Source of the DNA: a virus
Strand: one strand, 5' to 3'
Virus record (IMG/VR): IMGVR_UViG_3300005265_000067
Coordinates: 1-36,567 of that record
DNA length: 36,567 bases
Shown here: positions 7,464 through 32,200 of the stretch, in pieces
Numbering within the stretch: position 1 is the stretch's first letter
Layout of the letters: every line of letters starts with the position of its first letter
Translations under genes and position numbers: made by a program
The notes under the pieces: model-generated
What the model was told of the DNA's origin: nothing
The model's input: the letters and a program-made list of their open reading frames with translations, nothing else
Databases searched by the model: none

Positions 7464-7535
7464 TAAAATGTAAAATTAGAATCGCCTATTTTTTATTAAA
7501 AAAAGTAAAAATAAATGAAAATAAATGAAAATAAA

Positions 7536-7567
7536 TTTGGTAGTGTAATATTTTATATGTACTTTTA
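7536..7567 (+). promoter_or_regulatory. Bacteroidota-type promoter, copy A
   Basis: TTTG at 7536-7539, 20 bases, TACTTTTA at 7560-7567. This fits TTTG-N19/20-TAnnTTTG except for the last base. It reads toward the small HTH gene at 7691, and lies within tandem unit A. Confidence 0.5.
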
Positions 7568-7619
7568 TGTATTCATTTATTAAAAAAAGTGAAAATAAAT
7601 GAAAATAAATGAAAATAAA

Positions 7620-7651
7620 TTTGGTAGTGTAATATTTTATATGTACTTTTA
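7620..7651 (+). promoter_or_regulatory. Bacteroidota-type promoter, copy B
   Basis: Identical to copy A, displaced by exactly 84 bases: TTTG at 7620-7623 and TACTTTTA at 7644-7651. A start near 7657 would give a leader of about 34 bases to the gene at 7691. Confidence 0.5.
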
Positions 7652-7690
7652 TGTATTCATTTATTAAAAATAATACAAACAATTTTTTAT

Positions 7691-15409: not shown

Positions 15410-15784
15410 TTAAAAAAAATCTTTCATATGCTTTTCTATTTCATCGCTCATTTTATTAGTTATCTCAATATTAGCTCCTTTTCCACCATCGCCGCCATCA
15501 CCATCATTATTTTTCGGATTTACTCCTTTGTCATTTGGAGTGTTTTTTATCTTTGCTTCTAATACTTTTATTTTCGCCTCCATATCTGCTTTTACTGTAC
15601 GCTCAGCTTCTAATTTCGATTCTAAATTAGTAGCTTTTCTTTCTGCGCTTGACAGTGCTTGGTTTAAAATCATTAATTCATCGGGTGAAAGATATGCATC
15701 ACCTTCATCGTTTAATTGAAATGCCGAGATTTCCAATGCTAAACATAGTGCTATTGCACTTTTAAATACTGCTGTATTTGCCAT
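15410..15784 (-). CDS. Nested in-frame scaffold protein candidate
   Basis: An internal ATG at 15784, in the protease frame, would yield the C-terminal 124 residues (MANTAVFKSA...). Its upstream sequence, purine-rich AAAAGAAAAAATAAAA, looks like the other start sites of this genome. The domain boundary between protease and scaffold falls exactly here. Nested scaffold genes at the 3' end of protease genes are known, for example Nu3 within C of lambda. Separate expression is an inference. Confidence 0.55.
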   Translation of the reverse strand: MANTAVFKSAIALCLALEISAFQLNDEGDAYLSPDELMILNQALSSAERKATNLESKLEAERTVKADMEAKIKVLEAKIKNTPNDKGVNPKNNDGDGGDGGKGANIEITNKMSDEIEKHMKDFF

Positions 15785-16537
15785 TTTTATTTTTTCTTTT
15801 GGTTTTTTTATTTTTTTTTTCGGATTGTCTTCTTTATTAAAAAAAAGCTCTATTCCGTTAGCTATCATATCTTTAAATGTAACATTCTTTTTTTTGCCTT
15901 TTTTACTATAAAGATTGTAAATTTCTTCCCGGTTCATATTTTTTAGATTTGCAATTGTGGCTGGCGGATAAACTTTTGTATTTTCATCAAAGACATCAAC
16001 AAAACCGAACTCATTAGCTTCTGTTGCGGTCATATAATGATCTTTGCCATCGAACCATTTCTTTTTAATTTCTGAAATTGCAAGTCCTGTTTTATCTGAA
16101 ATTGCTTGTTGCAATACAGTTTCAAAAGTTTCAAGTGCCTTTATTACTTCTTGTAAATCATTAATATTGCCTCCGCCACCCGAAGAAGCTCTATGCAAAT
16201 GAAAAACAGAAGTCTTCGGAAAATGTGTAATTCCAGCAAGTATTAGTATAGCTGCCATACTACCAACCAATCCAGCATTATACGTATGAACTTCGGCATT
16301 CGATTTTATTAAAGCATTATAAATTGCAAGACCATCAGATATACGACCGCCTGGACTATTAATATGCAAATTTATACGCTTATGAGTCTTGCTAAATTTA
16401 TTTATCAATTTTGTAAACTCAAAAGCCGTATTGTTCGTTCCTTCTTCCCAATATGCTTCATCAAAACCAACAGCACCAAAAAGGTGTAAATTTACTGTCT
16501 TCGCATCCGCTACATTATAACTAAACTCTAACGCCAT
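15410..16537 (-). CDS. ClpP-like prohead protease fused to scaffold
   Basis: 375 residues from ATG at 16537 (MALEFSYNVA); an open frame reaching 16636 adds an unlikely 33-residue leader. ClpP/S14 features: 'INLHINSPGG' (residues 55-64), the nucleophile Ser93 in 'AGLVGSMAA', catalytic-region His in 'VFHLHRASSG' (111-120), and 'MTATEANEFGFVDVF' (169-183), where the acidic residue region lies. From about residue 252 the protein changes to a helical, Glu/Lys-rich scaffold domain with a coiled coil (about 285-325) and a Gly/Asp-rich linker. The protease cleaves scaffold and capsid during maturation. Confidence 0.85.
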   Translation of the reverse strand: MALEFSYNVADAKTVNLHLFGAVGFDEAYWEEGTNNTAFEFTKLINKFSKTHKRINLHINSPGGRISDGLAIYNALIKSNAEVHTYNAGLVGSMAAILILAGITHFPKTSVFHLHRASSGGGGNINDLQEVIKALETFETVLQQAISDKTGLAISEIKKKWFDGKDHYMTATEANEFGFVDVFDENTKVYPPATIANLKNMNREEIYNLYSKKGKKKNVTFKDMIANGIELFFNKEDNPKKKIKKPKEKIKMANTAVFKSAIALCLALEISAFQLNDEGDAYLSPDELMILNQALSSAERKATNLESKLEAERTVKADMEAKIKVLEAKIKNTPNDKGVNPKNNDGDGGDGGKGANIEITNKMSDEIEKHMKDFF

Positions 16538-16600
16538 ATTTTTATATTTTTTGAGACTACAAAATTGCAATGATATATAACGAAGCGAAAGGACAGTAAT

Positions 16601-16630
16601 AAAAAAGTCCCATTTATCAAAAATGGAACT
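16601..16630 (-). terminator. Terminator between gene 16643 and the protease gene
   Basis: On the minus strand AGTTCCATTT (16630-16621) pairs with AAATGGGACT (16615-16606), one G-U pair, loop of 5, followed by six T. It lies just past the stop of gene 16643 and 63 bases before the protease start, so the head genes probably have their own promoter in the short gap. Confidence 0.75.
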
Positions 16631-16642
16631 CTGCAAAAAAAA

Positions 16643-17636: not shown

Positions 17637-18116
17637 TCAAAGAGTTAGACGCTCTCTTTTTTGATAACGTGTGTATTTTCGGTACATACTACCATATTTT
17701 AGCATATCCTCATCTATTCCATACTTGTCTAAGAACATTTCTGTTGCTAGCTTTCTTTGCATTTTTTTGTATAAAACAGCATCTCTAATGTACTTTACAT
17801 AAGCATATTCGAAATCAAGACGTATTTCTTTTATAAAATAAGCGCGATTCTTTACACTTACCATATTATAAAAGTAAACATCTTTATAGCTGTTAAAAGG
17901 CAATTTGATTTTAACTACGGAATCATATTTATTTTCAAATGAATTAAAACAATCACGACGATTTGTTAAAATATTTCTCAATAATAAATTGTATTGATGA
18001 CGCTTGGGAAAAACTAAGATACCGCTTTTTTTATATTCTTTATGATCAGATTCATAAATTAAGAATTGTTTTAAATATGAAGGTATTGAAAAACTTATTG
18101 ATATTCGGGAAGGCAT
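17637..18116 (-). CDS. Unknown basic protein at the head of the virion operon
   Basis: 159 residues (starts MPSRISISFS), strongly basic with many Tyr, Lys and Arg. The C-terminal third ('KYGIDEDMLKYGSMYRKYTR') is helical and could bind nucleic acid, but no motif is certain. It is the first gene downstream of the iteron cluster and its overlapping promoter, so it may be directly regulated by whatever binds the iterons. Confidence 0.6.
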   Translation of the reverse strand: MPSRISISFSIPSYLKQFLIYESDHKEYKKSGILVFPKRHQYNLLLRNILTNRRDCFNSFENKYDSVVKIKLPFNSYKDVYFYNMVSVKNRAYFIKEIRLDFEYAYVKYIRDAVLYKKMQRKLATEMFLDKYGIDEDMLKYGSMYRKYTRYQKRERLTL

Positions 18117-18146: not shown

Positions 18147-18178
18147 TAAAGATAATGAAAAAAATGGAAAATGCCAAA
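18147..18178 (-). promoter_or_regulatory. Promoter of gene 17637 overlapping the last iteron
   Basis: On the minus strand TTTG (18178-18175), 20 bases, TATCTTTA (18154-18147). The TTTG box is the TTTGGCAT of the outermost iteron. A protein occupying the iterons would therefore cover or contact the -33 region. The -7 element misses the last G of TAnnTTTG. Confidence 0.5.
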
Positions 18179-18239
18179 CAAATGCCAAACAAATGCCAAA
18201 CAAATGCCAAACAAATGCCAAATAAATTAATAGTTTGGC
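18171..18239. repeat. Iteron module 1: five 11-bp repeats and a palindromic core
   Basis: TGCCAAA occurs at 18172, 18183, 18194, 18205 and 18216, a strict 11-bp period of ATGCCAAACAA. The last copy opens a 25-bp core (18215-18239): ATGCCAAAT, a 9-base A/T spacer, then the inverted half GTTTGGC. The same core, with one extra A, recurs in opposite orientation at 19478-19503. Helical phasing points to cooperative protein binding, as in plasmid and P4-type replication origins. Confidence 0.85.
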
Positions 18240-18362
18240 TTTTTTATAAATAACTATAAAACAATTAATTACAAGCTTTTTTTATATAAAAATGTCAAAG
18301 TGCCAAAAGAAATAGAATAAACTTAACCTCCATAAAATAATTTATTGTTTTTTTAGACAAAA

Positions 18363-18388
18363 GAAAACCCACTGAAATTAATCAGTGA
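18363..18388 (-). terminator. Terminator after gene 18427
   Basis: On the minus strand CACTGA (18387-18382) pairs with TCAGTG (18375-18370), followed by GGTTTTCTTTT. A short stem but correctly placed 40 bases past the stop. Confidence 0.55.
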
Positions 18389-18426
18389 GCTGCATTTATT
18401 TTATTGTGTTGTCATCGCTTCCAATA

Positions 18427-18813
18427 TTATAATTCAAACGCATCACATATTCTTTCTTTTTCTTCTTTGGTTATTAATTTCCTTTTATATAGTATTTCAG
18501 GAAAATTAATAGAAATAACAGGTCTTTTAAATTCTAAAATTGTTGCTAAATCTAAAAAGGTATATTTTTTAGTATCCTTATCATACCAAATAATTGTATA
18601 TGATGGTACACTCCAAGTTATTAAATCACATTTAGCATAACCTGATCTTCTCTCATCATATTTAATATTCTGAGTGCCTTTAATTACTTTAGGGAAAATT
18701 GCATCTTCACCCTCTATAGCCCAAAGTTCAATTTCTATTTCTCTGGCTATATCATGTATTTTTTCTATTTGTTTTTGTTCTTTTCTTTTGACAATAAATT
18801 CTATAGTTTTCAT
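18427..18813 (-). CDS. Unknown small protein within the origin region
   Basis: 128 residues starting MKTIEFIVKR. Alpha/beta in character: a charged N-terminal helix, then 'YAKCDLITWSVPSYTIIWYD' beta-like, then a C-terminal helix ending 'EKERICDAFEL'. I do not recognise it. It lies between the two inverted iteron modules downstream of the primase-helicase, so a role linked to replication or its control is possible from position only. Confidence 0.6.
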   Translation of the reverse strand: MKTIEFIVKRKEQKQIEKIHDIAREIEIELWAIEGEDAIFPKVIKGTQNIKYDERRSGYAKCDLITWSVPSYTIIWYDKDTKKYTFLDLATILEFKRPVISINFPEILYKRKLITKEEKERICDAFEL

Positions 18814-18824
18814 TAAAATTTTTT

Positions 18825-18969
18825 TTATTGTATTAAAAATTTAGTATTAACTTTTTTATCTAATTCCTTTTTTGATTTGAAAAATTCATAATTCATAAAT
18901 TCTAAAATCAAAAAGGCAGCATCAATTACTACTTTTTTTAGTTATATCTATTCCTTTGTATTTATCCAT
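18825..18969 (-). pseudogene. Small gene broken by one base in an A-run
   Basis: From ATG at 18969 the frame reads MDKYKGIDITKKSSN and stops. If the run of seven A (T at 18933-18939 on the plus strand) is read as six, the frame continues VVIDAAFLILEF... to a TAA at 18825, giving about 48 residues that end FLIQ, 11 bases before the next start. The continuation is coding-like and fills the gap between genes exactly. It may be a homopolymer sequencing error, a real frameshift or programmed slippage on A7. Confidence 0.45.
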
Positions 18970-18985
18970 TGTTTACAGAATTTAT

Positions 18986-19243
18986 TTATAAATTGGAAAA
19001 CTCTTCCTCCTTCTCTTTTATGTGTTTTTTCAATTCGAAAATTTTTTTATTGATTACCTCAATTAAAACGTAATCTGATATTAAATCATCATTTTTACTT
19101 CCAAAAATTCCATAGCTGTCTGGAACGAGCTTTCCGGTATTCTTATAATCTTTTTTTTTCCCTTCATAGAATGATAACTTGTCTTTTAACTTGTCTATAG
19201 CATCGTTTAATAAAACAGCTCTTTTTAAATATTCTTTTGTCAT
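18986..19243 (-). CDS. Small coiled-coil protein
   Basis: 85 residues, Lys/Glu-rich, with two helical stretches: 'LLNDAIDKLKDKLSFYEGKK' near the N-terminus and 'NKKIFELKKHIKEKEEEF' at the end, joined by a loop. It resembles a helical hairpin. No known family. First gene after the non-coding region with the second iteron module. Confidence 0.6.
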   Translation of the reverse strand: MTKEYLKRAVLLNDAIDKLKDKLSFYEGKKKDYKNTGKLVPDSYGIFGSKNDDLISDYVLIEVINKKIFELKKHIKEKEEEFSNL

Positions 19244-19281
19244 TTCTTTTATTTTTTCGTTAATATTTCTAATTAAAAACT

Positions 19282-19355
19282 ACACAGATTAGATATATAA
19301 AAATTGCGAAAATATTGAAACAAAAGTTTCAATAAAGACAAACTATAATCCGTGT
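19282..19355. repeat. Nested inverted repeats beside the iterons
   Basis: ACACAGATTA (19282-19291) is complementary to TAATCCGTGT (19346-19355), one mismatch. Inside it, TATTGAAAC (19313-19321) and GTTTCAATA (19326-19334) form a perfect 9-bp hairpin with loop AAAA. Such a structure could extrude at an origin or act in the leader of gene 18986. Confidence 0.7.
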
Positions 19356-19423
19356 AATATATTATTATAATTTCTTTTTTCTTTCTTCTTTCTTGCTTGC
19401 TACCTAATAGTTGTTCAAATATT

Positions 19424-19563
19424 TGGCATTTTTTAAAATAAGCTGATAACTAACTGTCTTACTGTATTTTACAAAATGCCAAACTATTAATTTTATTTGG
19501 CATTTTCTGGCATTTTATTTGGCATTTTGTGGCATTTTTGACATTTCTTGGCATTTCTTGGCA
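19424..19563. repeat. Iteron module 2, inverted relative to module 1
   Basis: TGGCATTT-type units start at 19498, 19508, 19520, 19530, (TGACA at 19539), 19549 and 19559, an average spacing of about 10 bases, one helical turn. An outlying TTTGGCATTTT lies at 19422. The core 19478-19503 is the reverse complement of the module 1 core with one extra A. On the minus strand the units read AAATGCCA, so the two modules face each other in inverted orientation around about 1.25 kb. Confidence 0.8.
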
Positions 19564-19578
19564 AAAAAAAATAAATTC

Positions 19579-22500
19579 TTACTTAAATTCTTCTGTAAGC
19601 TCAATATCAGAAAAAACATCAAATTCATTTATTTTTTCTTTAAATGAGACTTTTTTTACTACTTTTTTCACTTTGAGTTTTATTGTGTTTTTTCTTTTAA
19701 TCTCTTCATTAGTCTCTGCTTCTGTATTAATCCAAAAATGCTCAGTTTTCTTGGGTTTTCCAGATACGGTTTTTTGATATACAGACGGATAATAAATTCG
19801 TTTGTTATCTTTATTTAACAATTCTTTTGGATTGAATATGTAACCTCTCATTTTGCAATATGCCTCAACTAAAGGTTTGAATTTTCTTGGCGTATTGTAA
19901 ATTTTAGTTCTTTCTTTATAGCTCATTTTATTATACTGGGTATTGTGAAATAATTCAAAAAACGGACTCCTATCAAGATATCCAAAATTTTCATTTCCAA
20001 TGAAAAAATCATCGAGGAAATCAATAAGTGGGTCGCCTATTTCATTTTCAAGTTTCAGCTTTTTTGCATTTTCCATAGGAGCGTTTATTTCTTTGTAATG
20101 TTCTCTTGCGATGAACATATAAGCGAAACAATTAATCAAATCATTTTTTTGTTTATCTGTATCGGAAGTATAAAGCATTCTACCAAACCAGTCAGCTGGT
20201 GTACGTTCTGTCTTAAACTTTCCACTTCTTGCAGTATGAAAAAAATCATAAACGTATAAAAGTCCTATCCTCCTATCTATTCTCTCTGATCTTTTAATGA
20301 GTGGTGTAAAAGAATTTGCTGTAAGTAATATTTTGGGACTCTTTGAAAAAGGAATCGGAATAATGTCTTTATGTTTGCGGTTCTTATTAATACCCTCACT
20401 AAAGTCTGTAACCAAATCTTTCGGGTCTGCACTTTTATCTACATCTTCGAATATAATAAGTCTTTCGTTATTATATAATTGATAACGATGTTTATCTTTA
20501 AAGAAGTCTTCTTGATCTGCTTTCAGTCTCAGAACAGGCATAAATTGTTCAAAAGCTTTAGCCATTAACGTTTTCCCGCCACCAGATGCTCCATCACTAT
20601 CAATAGCATCAAGAATTGCAGCGCCATAACCATCTGTTGGTTCCCTATGCCCTTTTATAAAATATCCGAGATGTGTAATTTTATTTATAAAATGTAATTT
20701 CATCTCGTTTAATTCATCAGTTGTAAACAAATCTTTTGGCATTTTATACCAAAAATCTGACGGCTTTAAAAAATATCCATTGGTCTCAGCTCTTCTCCAA
20801 TGTTTATAAGATGTAGCAAAAAGATACTGAAGATAATAATTATTACGGTCATTAATTTTTATATCCCATTTGTCAATATCCCTATATTTTAACAACTCTT
20901 TTTTTGCCTCTTTTAATTTTCTAATATCATTTGCTTTTTTAGCTTCTGTTAATTTGCTAAGTGTTTTACTATAATTTCGCTGACGAAAAATTGTAAACGG
21001 TGCATCTTGTTTATCAGATGGAATATCTAATAACTCATCTTTCCAAATATATTTTTTTATTTCTTTTTGTGATTTCACTTCAATACCGTCTTTTGTTACT
21101 TTCCACATCATACCATCGGTAAAAAAAAAGTTCTGAAAATCGGGCCCTGAATTATTAAAATCTAATTCTTTTTGTTTTAATCCAGACAAGTTGTTCTCAG
21201 AAAAACGAGTTGATATTGCAATTTTATTGCGAAGTTTAATAATCTCGCCTCTATCCTCTAAGTACTTATCAACCTTTGTTTTTATATATCTTGGAAAAAT
21301 ATCCTTTCCCATCTTCTCAACTACTTTGCCTTTAATTTTAATATAGATATAATCTTTTTCATTTGTAATCATTTCATAAGTAAAATAACCAAGTTCGTTA
21401 AGGAAATTTCGGAAAACTATAATATTAATGTCAAAATCTCTTTTGTATCTATCCCATTCCCAGAATTTTAATGGCAATGCTGTATTCAAATGTTTTTTAA
21501 ATAAAAATTGCCCTTGTTCTTTTATAAAATGAGATACTGAATAAATATCCTTCTCTAAATAATAAGAATGAATTTCAATATGCTTAACTGCATTTTCTTT
21601 TGCTCGTTTGAGTTCTATTCTGTTATTTGTCGGTGTTTGATAAATTTGATGTGCATATGATAAAACAGTATTTTTAAATTTAGAAACAAAATAATCATTA
21701 ATAAAAATAGGTATTTCAGAAGCAGACAGTAAAGAAAGAAAATCAATAAAATTATAAACAACAATTACTCTGGGTATTTTTTGAACTTTATTTTTTCTTT
21801 TGCTTTTGTACCCCTCCATCTCTTCTTCGCTTTCATTTATTAGATTGTGATTTTCTTTTAAGTATTCCAAACCAAAAGTCCATTCATATTCTTCTTCTTT
21901 ATTATAAAAAATAACTTTTTTTTGTGGACTTTTGGCAAAAGGTCTGATAACAACCTTGTCATCGATTACAAAAATAGGATTATCAACAGTTGAACGATGT
22001 TTATATACAAAACCATCCGCTACAATAGTGTACTCTTTAATATATAAAAAATCAATAGATGCCAGAACTTGTTTGTCTAATAAACCAGATACATTAAGTT
22101 TATCAAAAATGTCGTCTGGTATCTTTTCTTGTTGCATAGTAAATGCTCCGTCTTTCTCGTCCTCCTTGGCTGGTCGCATGCTCTGTTCCGGTCTAATTTG
22201 TGGTTTGTATTTTTTATAATCTTTTTTTATTTTAATAATATGTTCTTTTAACTCGTCTATCTTGGGGTAAACGTAGTTTTCTTTATTATTAAGATAATCG
22301 AAGAGTTTGTCTTCTTTCTGTAATACATTGGCATCTTTATTTGTAGGAAAAATAAGAATGCCACCACTTTTGATTCTAAAATTTTGTTTTATAAAAAAAA
22401 GCAATAAGATTGCCGCCTTCTGACCAGAATAGTTTTTATCAAAATCATAAGCAAGAATTACATTTCTATCTGAAAAATATCTTGCAAATTTTTCTATATC

Positions 22501-23328
22501 ACTGATACGATTATTTGTTGAAAATGTAGCAATTGCTGATTTGCCAGCGTCCTTAATTGACAAGGCATTTATTGCAGCTTCGGCTACATAAACATCCTCA
22601 TGGTCTGGAATAAATGCAATATCATAAACAGCATTTGTCAAAGTACCAAAACCAGATTTTGTTATTTGACCTTCCGCTGGATTTATATACCTTCTATTTA
22701 AATACTTACGGTCTCTATCAAAAAAAACAACACTACCAGATACTTGCGATCCTGTTTTTTTATTGGTATATGGTTTAAGATAATTATAAGCTTCTTCTGG
22801 ATAAGTATCAGTCTGCAATCCTCGTTCTTGTTTCTTTTTACCAGATAGGTACTTTGTTGCTTCTCGTTTATTTGTGCCAATAGCTTTGTCAATCAAATAT
22901 TTAAGCTTATTTGCTTTTTCTTTTTTCGCCTTCTCGTCAGCCTGCTTCTTCATTTTTTTTCTTTTTTTTGTATTGTTATTTATTCTCGCAACAGCAGATT
23001 TTGATAAAGGCTTGTTATTTTCAATATCTATATTGTATTTGTTTGCCAACCAAACAAGAGCCTCATTATAATTAGCAATATTATTGCTTGGATACTTTAT
23101 TAAAAATTCAATAGCATCCCCAGAAGCTCCGCAGCCAAAACATTTATATGTACCGGACCCTTCATAAATTGCGAAACTGTCTGTATCCTCATCATGAAAA
23201 GGACAGTTGCATATATAAACAACTCCTTGTTTTTTGATAGTTATAAAATCTCCTATAACTTCAATTATGTTGATTGCATTTTTTATTTGATTCGACTTAT
23301 CGGTATTTATAAAAATTCCTTTACTCAT
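19579..23328 (-). CDS. Primase-helicase (CHC2 primase with SF3-like helicase)
   Basis: About 1249 residues from ATG at 23328; an in-frame GTG lies four codons earlier (residue numbers here count from that GTG). A CHC2-type zinc finger has Cys46, His49, Cys67 and Cys70 ('CPFHDEDTDSF...KCFGCGASGD'). A Toprim-like region follows with Glu254 and 'AYDFDKNYSGQKAA' (Asp299/Asp301). The C-terminal part is an AAA/SF3-like motor: Walker A GASGGGKT (917-924), Walker B LIIFEDVD (961-968), sensor KILLTANS (1003-1010) and an Arg pair at 1023-1024. It should prime and unwind the phage DNA. The unassigned middle (about 380-880) and C-terminal tail could bind the iterons, as the P4 alpha protein does. It stops 16 bases from the last iteron. 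Confidence 0.88.
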   Translation of the reverse strand: MSKGIFINTDKSNQIKNAINIIEVIGDFITIKKQGVVYICNCPFHDEDTDSFAIYEGSGTYKCFGCGASGDAIEFLIKYPSNNIANYNEALVWLANKYNIDIENNKPLSKSAVARINNNTKKRKKMKKQADEKAKKEKANKLKYLIDKAIGTNKREATKYLSGKKKQERGLQTDTYPEEAYNYLKPYTNKKTGSQVSGSVVFFDRDRKYLNRRYINPAEGQITKSGFGTLTNAVYDIAFIPDHEDVYVAEAAINALSIKDAGKSAIATFSTNNRISDIEKFARYFSDRNVILAYDFDKNYSGQKAAILLLFFIKQNFRIKSGGILIFPTNKDANVLQKEDKLFDYLNNKENYVYPKIDELKEHIIKIKKDYKKYKPQIRPEQSMRPAKEDEKDGAFTMQQEKIPDDIFDKLNVSGLLDKQVLASIDFLYIKEYTIVADGFVYKHRSTVDNPIFVIDDKVVIRPFAKSPQKKVIFYNKEEEYEWTFGLEYLKENHNLINESEEEMEGYKSKRKNKVQKIPRVIVVYNFIDFLSLLSASEIPIFINDYFVSKFKNTVLSYAHQIYQTPTNNRIELKRAKENAVKHIEIHSYYLEKDIYSVSHFIKEQGQFLFKKHLNTALPLKFWEWDRYKRDFDINIIVFRNFLNELGYFTYEMITNEKDYIYIKIKGKVVEKMGKDIFPRYIKTKVDKYLEDRGEIIKLRNKIAISTRFSENNLSGLKQKELDFNNSGPDFQNFFFTDGMMWKVTKDGIEVKSQKEIKKYIWKDELLDIPSDKQDAPFTIFRQRNYSKTLSKLTEAKKANDIRKLKEAKKELLKYRDIDKWDIKINDRNNYYLQYLFATSYKHWRRAETNGYFLKPSDFWYKMPKDLFTTDELNEMKLHFINKITHLGYFIKGHREPTDGYGAAILDAIDSDGASGGGKTLMAKAFEQFMPVLRLKADQEDFFKDKHRYQLYNNERLIIFEDVDKSADPKDLVTDFSEGINKNRKHKDIIPIPFSKSPKILLTANSFTPLIKRSERIDRRIGLLYVYDFFHTARSGKFKTERTPADWFGRMLYTSDTDKQKNDLINCFAYMFIAREHYKEINAPMENAKKLKLENEIGDPLIDFLDDFFIGNENFGYLDRSPFFELFHNTQYNKMSYKERTKIYNTPRKFKPLVEAYCKMRGYIFNPKELLNKDNKRIYYPSVYQKTVSGKPKKTEHFWINTEAETNEEIKRKNTIKLKVKKVVKKVSFKEKINEFDVFSDIELTEEFK

Positions 23329-23362
23329 AATTGTAAGCACTTAAATATTTATTAAAAAATCT

Positions 23363-29264: not shown

Positions 29265-32200
29265 TTAAAAATTAGAATATCTTAATAAAAGTTCTTCGTC
29301 TGTATTTCTTTCGTCTATTTCACGTTGTGAAATAACAGCTTTCATATATTTCAATTTATCAATTGTATCTACCATTGTTATCATACATTTTTGCATTTTT
29401 ACGACTTCATTTGTTAGTTTTATCATTCCTTTTGTGTCCACTTGATTAACAACAGTATTATTATTAATATTATTATCAGCTTTGTTTGTTATTGTTTTTT
29501 TCATTCCTGAGAAATTAGCTTGTGCTGGTTGTCTTAGAAAGTTAGGTTTTTTACCTTCTTGTATTCTAGCTAGGTCGTCGGCAATTGGTCCTAGTTCTTT
29601 GTCTTCGACTATTTTATTAGATAATATAATTTCTTTACCTTTTTCGCCGACAATTGCTGTGTGTGGATGGTTTATTCTTCCTCCGTCTCCGTATTTTGGT
29701 ATTGGTTCTGAAGCGATTGTAGCAAGGTTAAGTGCTCCTATTATTCCTGCGGCAGCCATCAGGTATGGGTTTGGAAATACTTGAACAATATTTGCAGCTG
29801 TATTAATTACAGTTTCGAAGAGTCTGGCATTTCTATCTCTTTTTGCTTGTTCGTGTGCAATTTTTCTTCTTTTTTTGTCGAGGTTCTTGTCGAGACCAGC
29901 AATTTGTTCGTTGTGAGATTTTTCTGATATAAGTCCGTTTTTGAGTTGTCTATCTAATAGCTCTTTTTTTCTATTTATATTTTCTTCGTACTCGTCCATC
30001 GCTTTATTTTCTTCTGCTTTTTTCAAATTATTGTACGCTGTAGTTATATTGCTAAGTTCCTGTGCGATGCGAATAACCTTGTCTATTTTTTTTTTAATCT
30101 CGGCTACCTCTTTGTCCGATAAATTAAAAAAGATATTTTTGTCTTTATATTTTTCGTCTATTGCATCAAGTTCTACTTTTAATCTTCTTTTTAGTTCGAT
30201 AGTATCTGTTATATTTTCTTCGGCGAGTATAAGAAGCTTTTGATATTTTTCTTTTACAGAGTTTATTTCTTTTTCTTTTTCTGTTGATAAAAAATCTTTT
30301 ATTTCTTTTTTAACTCTGTCTCTTTGTTCTTGTTGAAGCTTAGTTATTTCTTCTTCTAATTTTTTTTCAATCTTTTTATAGTCTGTTCCATATTTTTTAG
30401 CTAGCTCTATAAATTTTTCATATTTAGCTTTTAATGCTGTTATTTCTTTTTCATTGTTTGTTTCATCGTCTGTCGTCAAGAATTTATTAATTTTTTCTCT
30501 TATTTTGTTTTGTTCTTCGAGATGTTTAACATTAATATTATTTTGTTCTTCTTTAAACTGTTTGTTAAGTTGTGTTTTTTGTTTATAAAATTTAGAAAGC
30601 AAATTTGTTTCTTTTTTATTAAGACCTCTTTTAGTTTTTTGTTTAGCTTCTAAGTCTTCAATTGCATCTTTATTAACTTCCATCATTTCTTCATAATGAA
30701 TTTTAGAAATTTCGAGTTCTTTTTCCCATTCTGTTTTTGCATCTAAACCAGCTTTTCGTCTAATTTGTTTAAGTTCATCTTGTAATTGTTTGTATTTAGC
30801 GAGCATTCCATTGTATAAATCATCGCTTGTGTTGTTTGTTGTTCCTGTTCTTTTTCCTGTTTTTGTTCCTGTTTCTGTTTTTGTTCCTGTTTCTGTTTTT
30901 GTTCCTGTTTCTGTTTCTGTTTCTGTTTCTCCGTATCCGGATCGTGCTTTTTGATCTTTTATTCCGTATTTTTTTCTAAGTTTATTATATGCTTTCAAAT
31001 GTCTTACTACTTCTAATTGTCGCGCTCCGTGACTTCCTTTAAGATTTTTCATTATTGTAAGGTGTTTATTTCTTAACAACATAAGTTCTTCGCTAAAAGT
31101 TTTTGTTCGTTCTGTGTTTATTTTGTCGTTTGTTTCTTTTTCATATCCCCATCGTGCTTTTTGATCTTTTATTCCGTATTTTTTTCTAAGTTTATTATAT
31201 GCTTTCAAATGTCTTACTACTTCTAATTGTCGCGCTCCATGATCTCCTTTAAGTTTTCTCATTGTTGTAAGGTGTATATTTCTTAACAACATAAGTTCTT
31301 CGCTAAAAGTTTTTGTTCGTTTTTTTTTGCTTTCTTTAAGATTTTCCGTTATTGTATTGTCTTTATTGCTTAACAAATTGATTTCATCGGTAGCCGCTGC
31401 TGTGTTTTTTTCTTCAATATATCCGCTGAACGCTGCATTCATTCTTTTTAATTCCTCATTTTTGTCCGCTTCAATTGATAGTATATCAGCGACATTCATC
31501 TCTAAACCCGCTTTACCTTTTCTCATAAAACCTTCATTGTCTTTTAGATATTTATCATAAAAATCGCCTATTGCTTTTTCTCCCTCTGGTGTAAAACTAT
31601 ACCCGTCTATTAATCCGGTGTTCATTTTTATTTTTTCTTTGTCTACTAATTTTAACAGTTCATTAAATTCATCCGCTACTACTCTTGTCAAAGAAGAGTT
31701 CTTTTTTGTAGCCATTTCTATGATATCAGATATTTCACTTGTTCTTTCTTTTATTGCTTCTTCTTTTATTTTATTCAGATTTTCATTTCTCATTTTGAGA
31801 GCAATATTTTTTGTCAATGCTTCATTTGCTAATTTTTGTGCATTTGTTATTTCACTTAGTGTTGACTTCTCGGTTAATAACTGTGGTAGGTATTTGCCGT
31901 ATTGTTTATTTATTTTTTTAATTACTTCTGTTCTTGCTTCTGTTCCTATTGTTGCTTTTTTTAAACTATCAAAAAGATTATTCATTGCATTTTTTTGTAT
32001 TGTAAGTTCTTCATTAAATTTTCTAACTGCTATGTTTGTAGCTTTTACTTTAGCCATAAAATTAGAATACAATATTTCTAAAACTGTAAATAATGAAATT
32101 AATAAACCAATTGGGTTTGCTCTCATACTCATATTTAGCATTTTTTGAGCCGCTGCGGCTCTTGTTGTATTGTTTGTTAGTTTTGCTTGTGCTAATGCTA

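Follow-up and report, generated by a model that had tools for sequence, protein, structure and literature searches.

A split iteron element beside a fused primase-helicase gene as a predicted replication origin in a Bacteroidota phage

Replication origins of Bacteroidota phages and prophages, which are abundant in the gut and the sea, are hardly known, and no publication on iteron origins of Bacteroidetes phages was found in the literature searched. The window analysed here, an entire viral record of 36,567 nucleotides, contained two inverted repeat modules beside a gene for a 1253-aa primase-helicase, which raises the question of what these modules do and which protein reads them. On the basis of sequence comparison, modules 1 and 2 probably (about 0.8) make up a single replication origin of the iteron type, one half each, which the phage's own primase-helicase would recognise. 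The features of the locus are as follows:

1-36,567: source record, the entire IMG/VR virus record, 28% G+C
15410-16636, minus strand: ClpP-type head protease
17637-18116, minus strand: 159-aa protein, first gene of the late side, which neighbours the element in most relatives
18169-18227, plus strand: module 1 iteron array, five 11-bp units AAATGCCAAAC, the last being AAATGCCAAAT
18213-18239, no strand assigned: core 1, imperfect palindrome AAATGCCAAATAAATTAATAGTTTGGC
18246-19470, no strand assigned: AT-rich segment between the two proposed halves, 23.7% G+C, with two small ORFs
18290-18309, no strand assigned: degenerate extra sites TGTCAAA / GTGCCAAAA adjoining core 1, from sequence
18366-18391, minus strand: terminator-like hairpin between the 128-aa ORF and module 1, from a terminator search
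18427-18813, minus strand: ORF of 128 aa inside the split
18986-19243, minus strand: ORF of 85 aa inside the split
19422-19483, no strand assigned: imperfect hairpin, 19-nt arms, 95% complementary
19474-19505, no strand assigned: core 2, AAATGCCAAACTATTAATTTTATTTGGCATTT, an inverted copy of core 1
19496-19563, minus strand: module 2 iteron array, ending 15 bp from the primase-helicase stop
19579-23340, minus strand: primase-helicase, 1253 aa, proposed initiator
19738-19959, minus strand: codons of the predicted winged helix (residues 1128-1201)
19771-19773, minus strand: codon of Lys1190, the specificity column suggested by comparative statistics

The sequence-only reading had described five units with an 11-bp period plus a core in module 1, and these repeats were found where it had placed them. 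Exact copies of ATGCCAAACAA started at 18171, 18182, 18193, and 18204, and a fifth unit, ATGCCAAATAA, at 18215 ran on into core 1; the period was 11 bp with 97% matches. The core recurred in inverted orientation, as had been claimed, and core 2 was the reverse complement of core 1 except for one added T and a few end bases. The two cores represent one asymmetric sequence in opposite orientations, and GCCAAACTATTAAT occurred exactly twice in the record, once on each strand. The "six or seven" TGGCA units previously counted in module 2 comprised six exact units (19498, 19508, 19520, 19530, 19549, and 19559) and one TGACA variant (19541), spaced 8-12 bp apart. Within the 36.6 kb, 12 of the 14 AAATGCCA sites were located at 18169-19549, and AATGCCA reached a maximum of six per 100 bp, compared with two or fewer in 200 first-order Markov simulations; the clustering of the repeats is far above chance. 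The degenerate sites at 18290-18309 read TGTCAAAGTGCCAAAA, and the arms of the imperfect hairpin (19422-19440 and 19465-19483) carried TTTGGCA and TGCCAAA; the hairpin holds an outer TTTGGCA site as well as the first half of core 2. The tandem arrays lay on the outside, with one palindromic core on the inner side of each half. The change in GC skew that had been anticipated at this site did not appear: both GC and AT skew tracked the coding strand without a switch at the repeats, and GC skew is therefore uninformative on the position of an origin. Other repeats in the record included a tandem duplication of 210 bp (30934-31321, copies 94% alike) and 4.7 copies of an 18-bp repeat (30846-30930), both in the tape-measure gene, as well as an 84-bp unit present 2.1 times at 98% identity, with AAAATAAATG repeats, between larger genes (7492-7670).

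On the minus strand, the gene order was primase-helicase, module 2, 85-aa ORF, 128-aa ORF, hairpin, module 1, 159-aa gene, and head protease. Two terminators were found in the search versus 0.2 expected, and the hairpin at 18366-18391 is likely the end of the early transcription unit. Neither the 85-aa nor the 128-aa ORF had recognisable relatives among the fetched loci.

Single-sequence searches of IMG/VR with the primase-helicase and the head protease returned no direct relatives. Polaribacter phage Leef_1 and Bacteroides phage BT-TP2 were identified as relatives by tblastn, and the remaining relatives were reached only after alignment with the sequences of these two phages. The alignment of the three primase-helicases led to locus L010 (46% identity) and 14 further viral loci, and later additions were 80 loci from bacterial genomes, whose titles all indicated Bacteroidota, and about 60 more viral ones. 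The primase-helicases of Leef_1 and BT-TP2 are homologous to that of the present phage (22-26% identity), and their 155-160 aa gene and head protease are ordered in the same way. Both phages carried a single compact GATTACAA / GTTACAA element, in which the spelling differs (GATTACA in Leef_1 and GTTACAA in BT-TP2) and for which no origin is annotated. BT-TP2 (L026) also harbored an annotated reverse transcriptase near the genome end (40959-42254), possibly part of a diversity-generating retroelement. The 155-160 aa protein was conserved in 114 loci and had a confident fold prediction (pLDDT 93.7); a fold search matched no solved structure and, among viral models, only the protein of Leef_1 itself.

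Conservation of the repeats in relatives, on which the sequence-only reading had made its proposal depend, was examined by a blind scan (7-mer Poisson statistics over each whole locus, with no motif supplied) of 121 Bacteroidota phage and prophage loci in which a related primase-helicase was followed by 8 kb or more of sequence. A strong repeat cluster was present downstream of the primase-helicase in 112 loci, and in 107 of the 121 this downstream cluster outranked every other in the locus. Of the nine loci that were missed, two (L088 and L091) fell only just under the threshold. The compact element has a median span of 240 bp and 10-20 sites, and its distance from the stop codon of the primase-helicase ranges from 15 bp to 8.6 kb. 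It is mostly situated directly before the 155-160 aa gene, usually at the boundary between early and late genes, with a median of 403 bp from the element start to the open start of that ORF. A second phage group carried the element upstream of a different structural-type gene, with the 155-160 aa gene several kilobases away. The usual motif is GTTACAAA, with the variants ATTACAA, GTCACAA, GATACAA, and TGACAAA, and TGCCA in the present phage; counted by locus, GTTACA (59) was followed by ATTACA (21), GTAACA (13), GTCACA (11), GATACA (7), and rarer spellings. L010 contained ten TGACAAA/TGCCAAA sites in the noncoding region before its homologue of the 159-aa gene. In the compact elements of the relatives, tandem sites were located outside and inverted pairs inside, often 21-23 bp apart. 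The second iteron cluster was found in this phage alone, the relatives having one compact cluster each, and iteron sites near the primase stop were not enriched in the relatives (three seen versus 4.2 expected in 80 loci). A search of viral contigs for exact GCCAAAC arrays gave five matches that were judged unrelated from their sequence context, and a search with the long core pattern gave zero.

Four Prevotella-type loci (L049, L058, L100, and L101) had their cluster directly after the primase-helicase, with the motifs AGTGAGA, GTCTCAC, GGGAACA, and CAGTCCA and no 155-160 aa gene close by; these are natural cases for studying large shifts in specificity. Second strong clusters of CATGGTC (six copies) were observed about 1.2 kb past the primase-helicase in L017 (10051) and L018 (8326), unrelated to the origin motif. 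Strong upstream clusters (TAGGGGA, eight copies; TCGGTAA, eight and six copies) were distributed among L156, L157, and L104, about 6.3 kb before the primase-helicase end in L156 and L157 and at 5.2 and 8.1 kb in L104, and are possibly repressor operators.

The primase-helicase was the sole early gene present in all of the loci clustered, and the motif could be compared with both candidate proteins in 78 dereplicated loci that contained the primase-helicase as well as the 155-160 aa protein. The nearest neighbour had the same motif in 74% of cases when chosen by the primase-helicase and in 53% when chosen by the 155-160 aa protein; discordant cases favoured the primase-helicase by 19 to 2 (p = 0.0002), and the partial rank correlation was 0.30 for the primase-helicase, compared with -0.10 for the 155-160 aa protein. 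In this comparison of sequences, it is the primase-helicase, not its 155-160 aa neighbour, with which the motif co-varies. This neighbour had been considered as the repeat-binding protein and was rejected on the grounds of the covariation.

Since the loci had been gathered via the primase-helicase, a reverse test that started from the DNA pattern matters here. Viral contigs were searched for GGTTACAAAAN{1,8}TGTAACC with no protein reference, which yielded at least 80 loci, and a locus was called array-like when about 520 bp contained six or more GTTAC sites. Among the matches listed, 45 of 80 loci were array-like, and a member of the primase-helicase family was present in 18 of these (10 known and 8 new), compared with none of the 35 non-array loci. 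Among the same matches, the other 27 array-like loci included 15 with a DUF5906 helicase (versus 2 of 22 non-array loci) and 13 with a P4-family primase C-terminus (versus 0 of 22); in 12 of the 45, several of which were short fragments, no helicase of the kinds named was recognised. Some array-like loci were Listeria-type phages with NrS-1-like PrimPol-helicases (L219, L236, L244, and similar phages, with GGTTACA arrays near these genes), which indicates that GGTTACA-like iterons accompany this helicase type well beyond Bacteroidota.

The primase-helicase contained a DnaG-type zinc ribbon and a Toprim-like domain, both by Pfam, and an SF3-type AAA+ helicase with Walker A, and thus combines primase and SF3-type helicase in one protein as in the P4-alpha/PICI type. 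TIGR01613, the P4-family primase C-terminal domain, was not matched, dnaG being the only NCBIfam match, and PF19263 matched weakly in just 3 of 13 family members. An AlphaFold2 model of residues 800-1253 (89 sequences, mean pLDDT 84.7) placed three helices (1128-1138, 1141-1146, and 1151-1165) and a beta hairpin (1182-1201) after the AAA+ domain. In this model, residues 1128-1201 form a C-terminal winged helix, the predicted counterpart of the P4-alpha/PICI origin-binding domain. Among 178 windows along the protein, those that best predicted the motif lay at 1119-1209, over the winged helix (best score 0.71 versus a mean of 0.635, sd 0.030), and windows outside it predicted the motif moderately too; a pairwise column score gave no significant primase region for the motif. 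When 947 columns were ranked by their change at independent G/A switches, the top one was column 1190, where the first strand of the wing ends: it had changed at 9 of 10 inferred independent switches, compared with 1.1% in distance-matched pairs. Of the 69 G-type loci, 68 had K or R at this column, whereas 18 of the 20 A-type loci had a non-basic residue (Fisher p = 1e-15, a value that ignores the relatedness of the loci and applies to a column around which gap placement in the alignment is uncertain). From these statistics, we infer that column 1190 may contact DNA. The motif register in the present phage is TTGGCATTT or TGCCAAA, and Lys1190 goes without a G at position 1 in both; with this uncertain register, the code of the relatives is not directly readable in this phage. 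Its closest relative, L010, has Gln at the column.

The C-terminal domain of P4 alpha is a winged helix that binds ori (solved as 1ka8, residues 671-770), and SaPI Rep binds its own iterons. A Foldseek search with the helicase and C-terminal region found the SaPI5 primase-helicase (PDB 7om0/7ola) as the nearest structure, with papillomavirus E1, the NrS-1 CTR (6k9e), and poxvirus D5 also among the closest, at modest TM-scores of about 0.3-0.5; P4 alpha and the SaPI5 primase matched at the sequence level. It is because of the motif-protein covariation, the wing residue of the winged helix, and this nearest fold that the element is read as a P4/PICI-type origin. P4 also has a fused primase-helicase with a C-terminal origin-binding domain (here predicted), short iterons in both orientations, and an iteron, GGTGAACA, that is similar to GGTTACA. 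Unlike in P4, the primase part in this phage and L010 consists of a DnaG zinc ribbon and Toprim. In PICIs, the origin lies 3' of pri-rep and has two iteron sets that flank an AT-rich region, a plan that was called unique to PICIs in 2018 (PMC6092414). In PICI/SaPI elements (pri-rep and ori; PriRep1, 7pds) as here, two iteron sets surround AT-rich DNA, which between modules 1 and 2 has 23.7% G+C and an atypical length of 1.2 kb. However, PICIs are satellites, whereas the present element occurs in tailed Bacteroidota phages and often kilobases from the primase-helicase gene. NrS-1 has a related helicase and C-terminal region, but a PrimPol replaces the DnaG-type primase; its primase-polymerase recognises TTTGGTTA (PMC8718748), in only two copies that serve primer initiation (PMC7102993). 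In the Listeria phage LP-HM00113468, whose PrimPol-helicase is NrS-1-like, about 1 kb separates the gene of this enzyme from GGTTACA arrays.

The modules could instead form a true two-site system, with module 1 as ori and module 2 as crr in separate, non-interchangeable roles. In the P4 record, crr lies directly 3' of alpha, and ori, with the same type 1 iterons (TGTTCACC/GGTGAACA), lies at the early/late boundary; module 2 directly 3' of the primase-helicase and module 1 at the early/late boundary resemble this arrangement. However, no relative has a second iteron cluster or, in the 80 loci, an enrichment at the primase stop, and the relatives have a single compact origin, whereas P4 is a satellite whose two sites are about 4.5 kb apart, compared with just 1.25 kb here. 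The mirror-image core shared by the modules is also expected of halves or of an inverted duplicate, and a two-site system is unlikely. Of the P4-like logic proposed earlier, recognition of the iterons by the primase-helicase is upheld as a prediction by covariation, the predicted winged helix, and fold matches, but ori and crr as a general rule are not; the element would work like that of P4 without belonging to its two-site design. Control of transcription, in which a regulator switches the late genes or the 155-160 aa gene from an operator or late promoter, would explain why the element ends directly upstream of this gene in most loci and why a terminator precedes module 1, and autoregulation by the primase-helicase via the sites is possible. 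This reading is improbable, because the motif does not follow the 155-160 aa protein, the second group has the element before another gene with the 155-160 aa gene kilobases off, and 10-20 sites over 240 bp exceed a usual operator. The shared operator offered earlier as an alternative meets the same difficulty, the motif not tracking the adjoining late-module gene.

Inverted arrays that surround a segment may also suggest an attachment site, an invertible segment, or a partition site, and the integrase gene of Leef_1 adjoins the element. In the other relatives for which the position was worked out, however, the integrase is roughly 7-14 kb away, and the record encodes no tyrosine (PF00589) or serine recombinase and no ParA or ParB, which disfavours the invertible segment and the partition site of the sequence-only reading; this group of explanations is very unlikely. 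Multiple binding repeats are known at cosB, and an element with such repeats near the head genes could also serve packaging, as a cos or pac site to which the small terminase binds. The motif covaries with the primase-helicase, however, and the physical ends of Leef_1 are predicted to be of the cos 3' type (PMC8776804); provided that its record begins at such an end, as is usual, cos and the element would be about 8 kb apart. A role in packaging is extremely unlikely.

As an origin recognised by the primase-helicase, the element would work as follows. The winged helix of the 1253-aa protein would bind the repeats, TTGGCATTT/AAATGCCAA here and GTTACAAA in most relatives, and the two arrays would nucleate SF3 helicase hexamers on the AT-rich stretch. 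The helicase would then melt the origin DNA, and the fused DnaG-type primase would make the first primers. In this phage, a segment of 1.2 kb at 24% G+C with two small ORFs would separate one half of the origin, on the side of the primase, from the other, on the side of the late genes, and the two halves may work together. The split reads as an origin pulled apart by an insertion, or as an inverted duplication.

The broader proposal stands at about even odds: these origins would form a large, as yet undescribed class among Bacteroidota phages, with the wing of the primase-helicase reading the iteron and column 1190 (Lys/Arg versus Asn/Ser/Thr) setting G or A as the first base across about ten switches; specificity would diversify by single changes in the wing, and in the present phage the split halves would have to be looped together. 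For more than a hundred phages and prophages, the analysis predicts an origin, the protein that initiates at it, and a rule of recognition at the level of a single residue. If true, it would extend the PICI origin plan to tailed phages and link it with P4 alpha, and the element would offer minimal replicons for Bacteroidota vectors.
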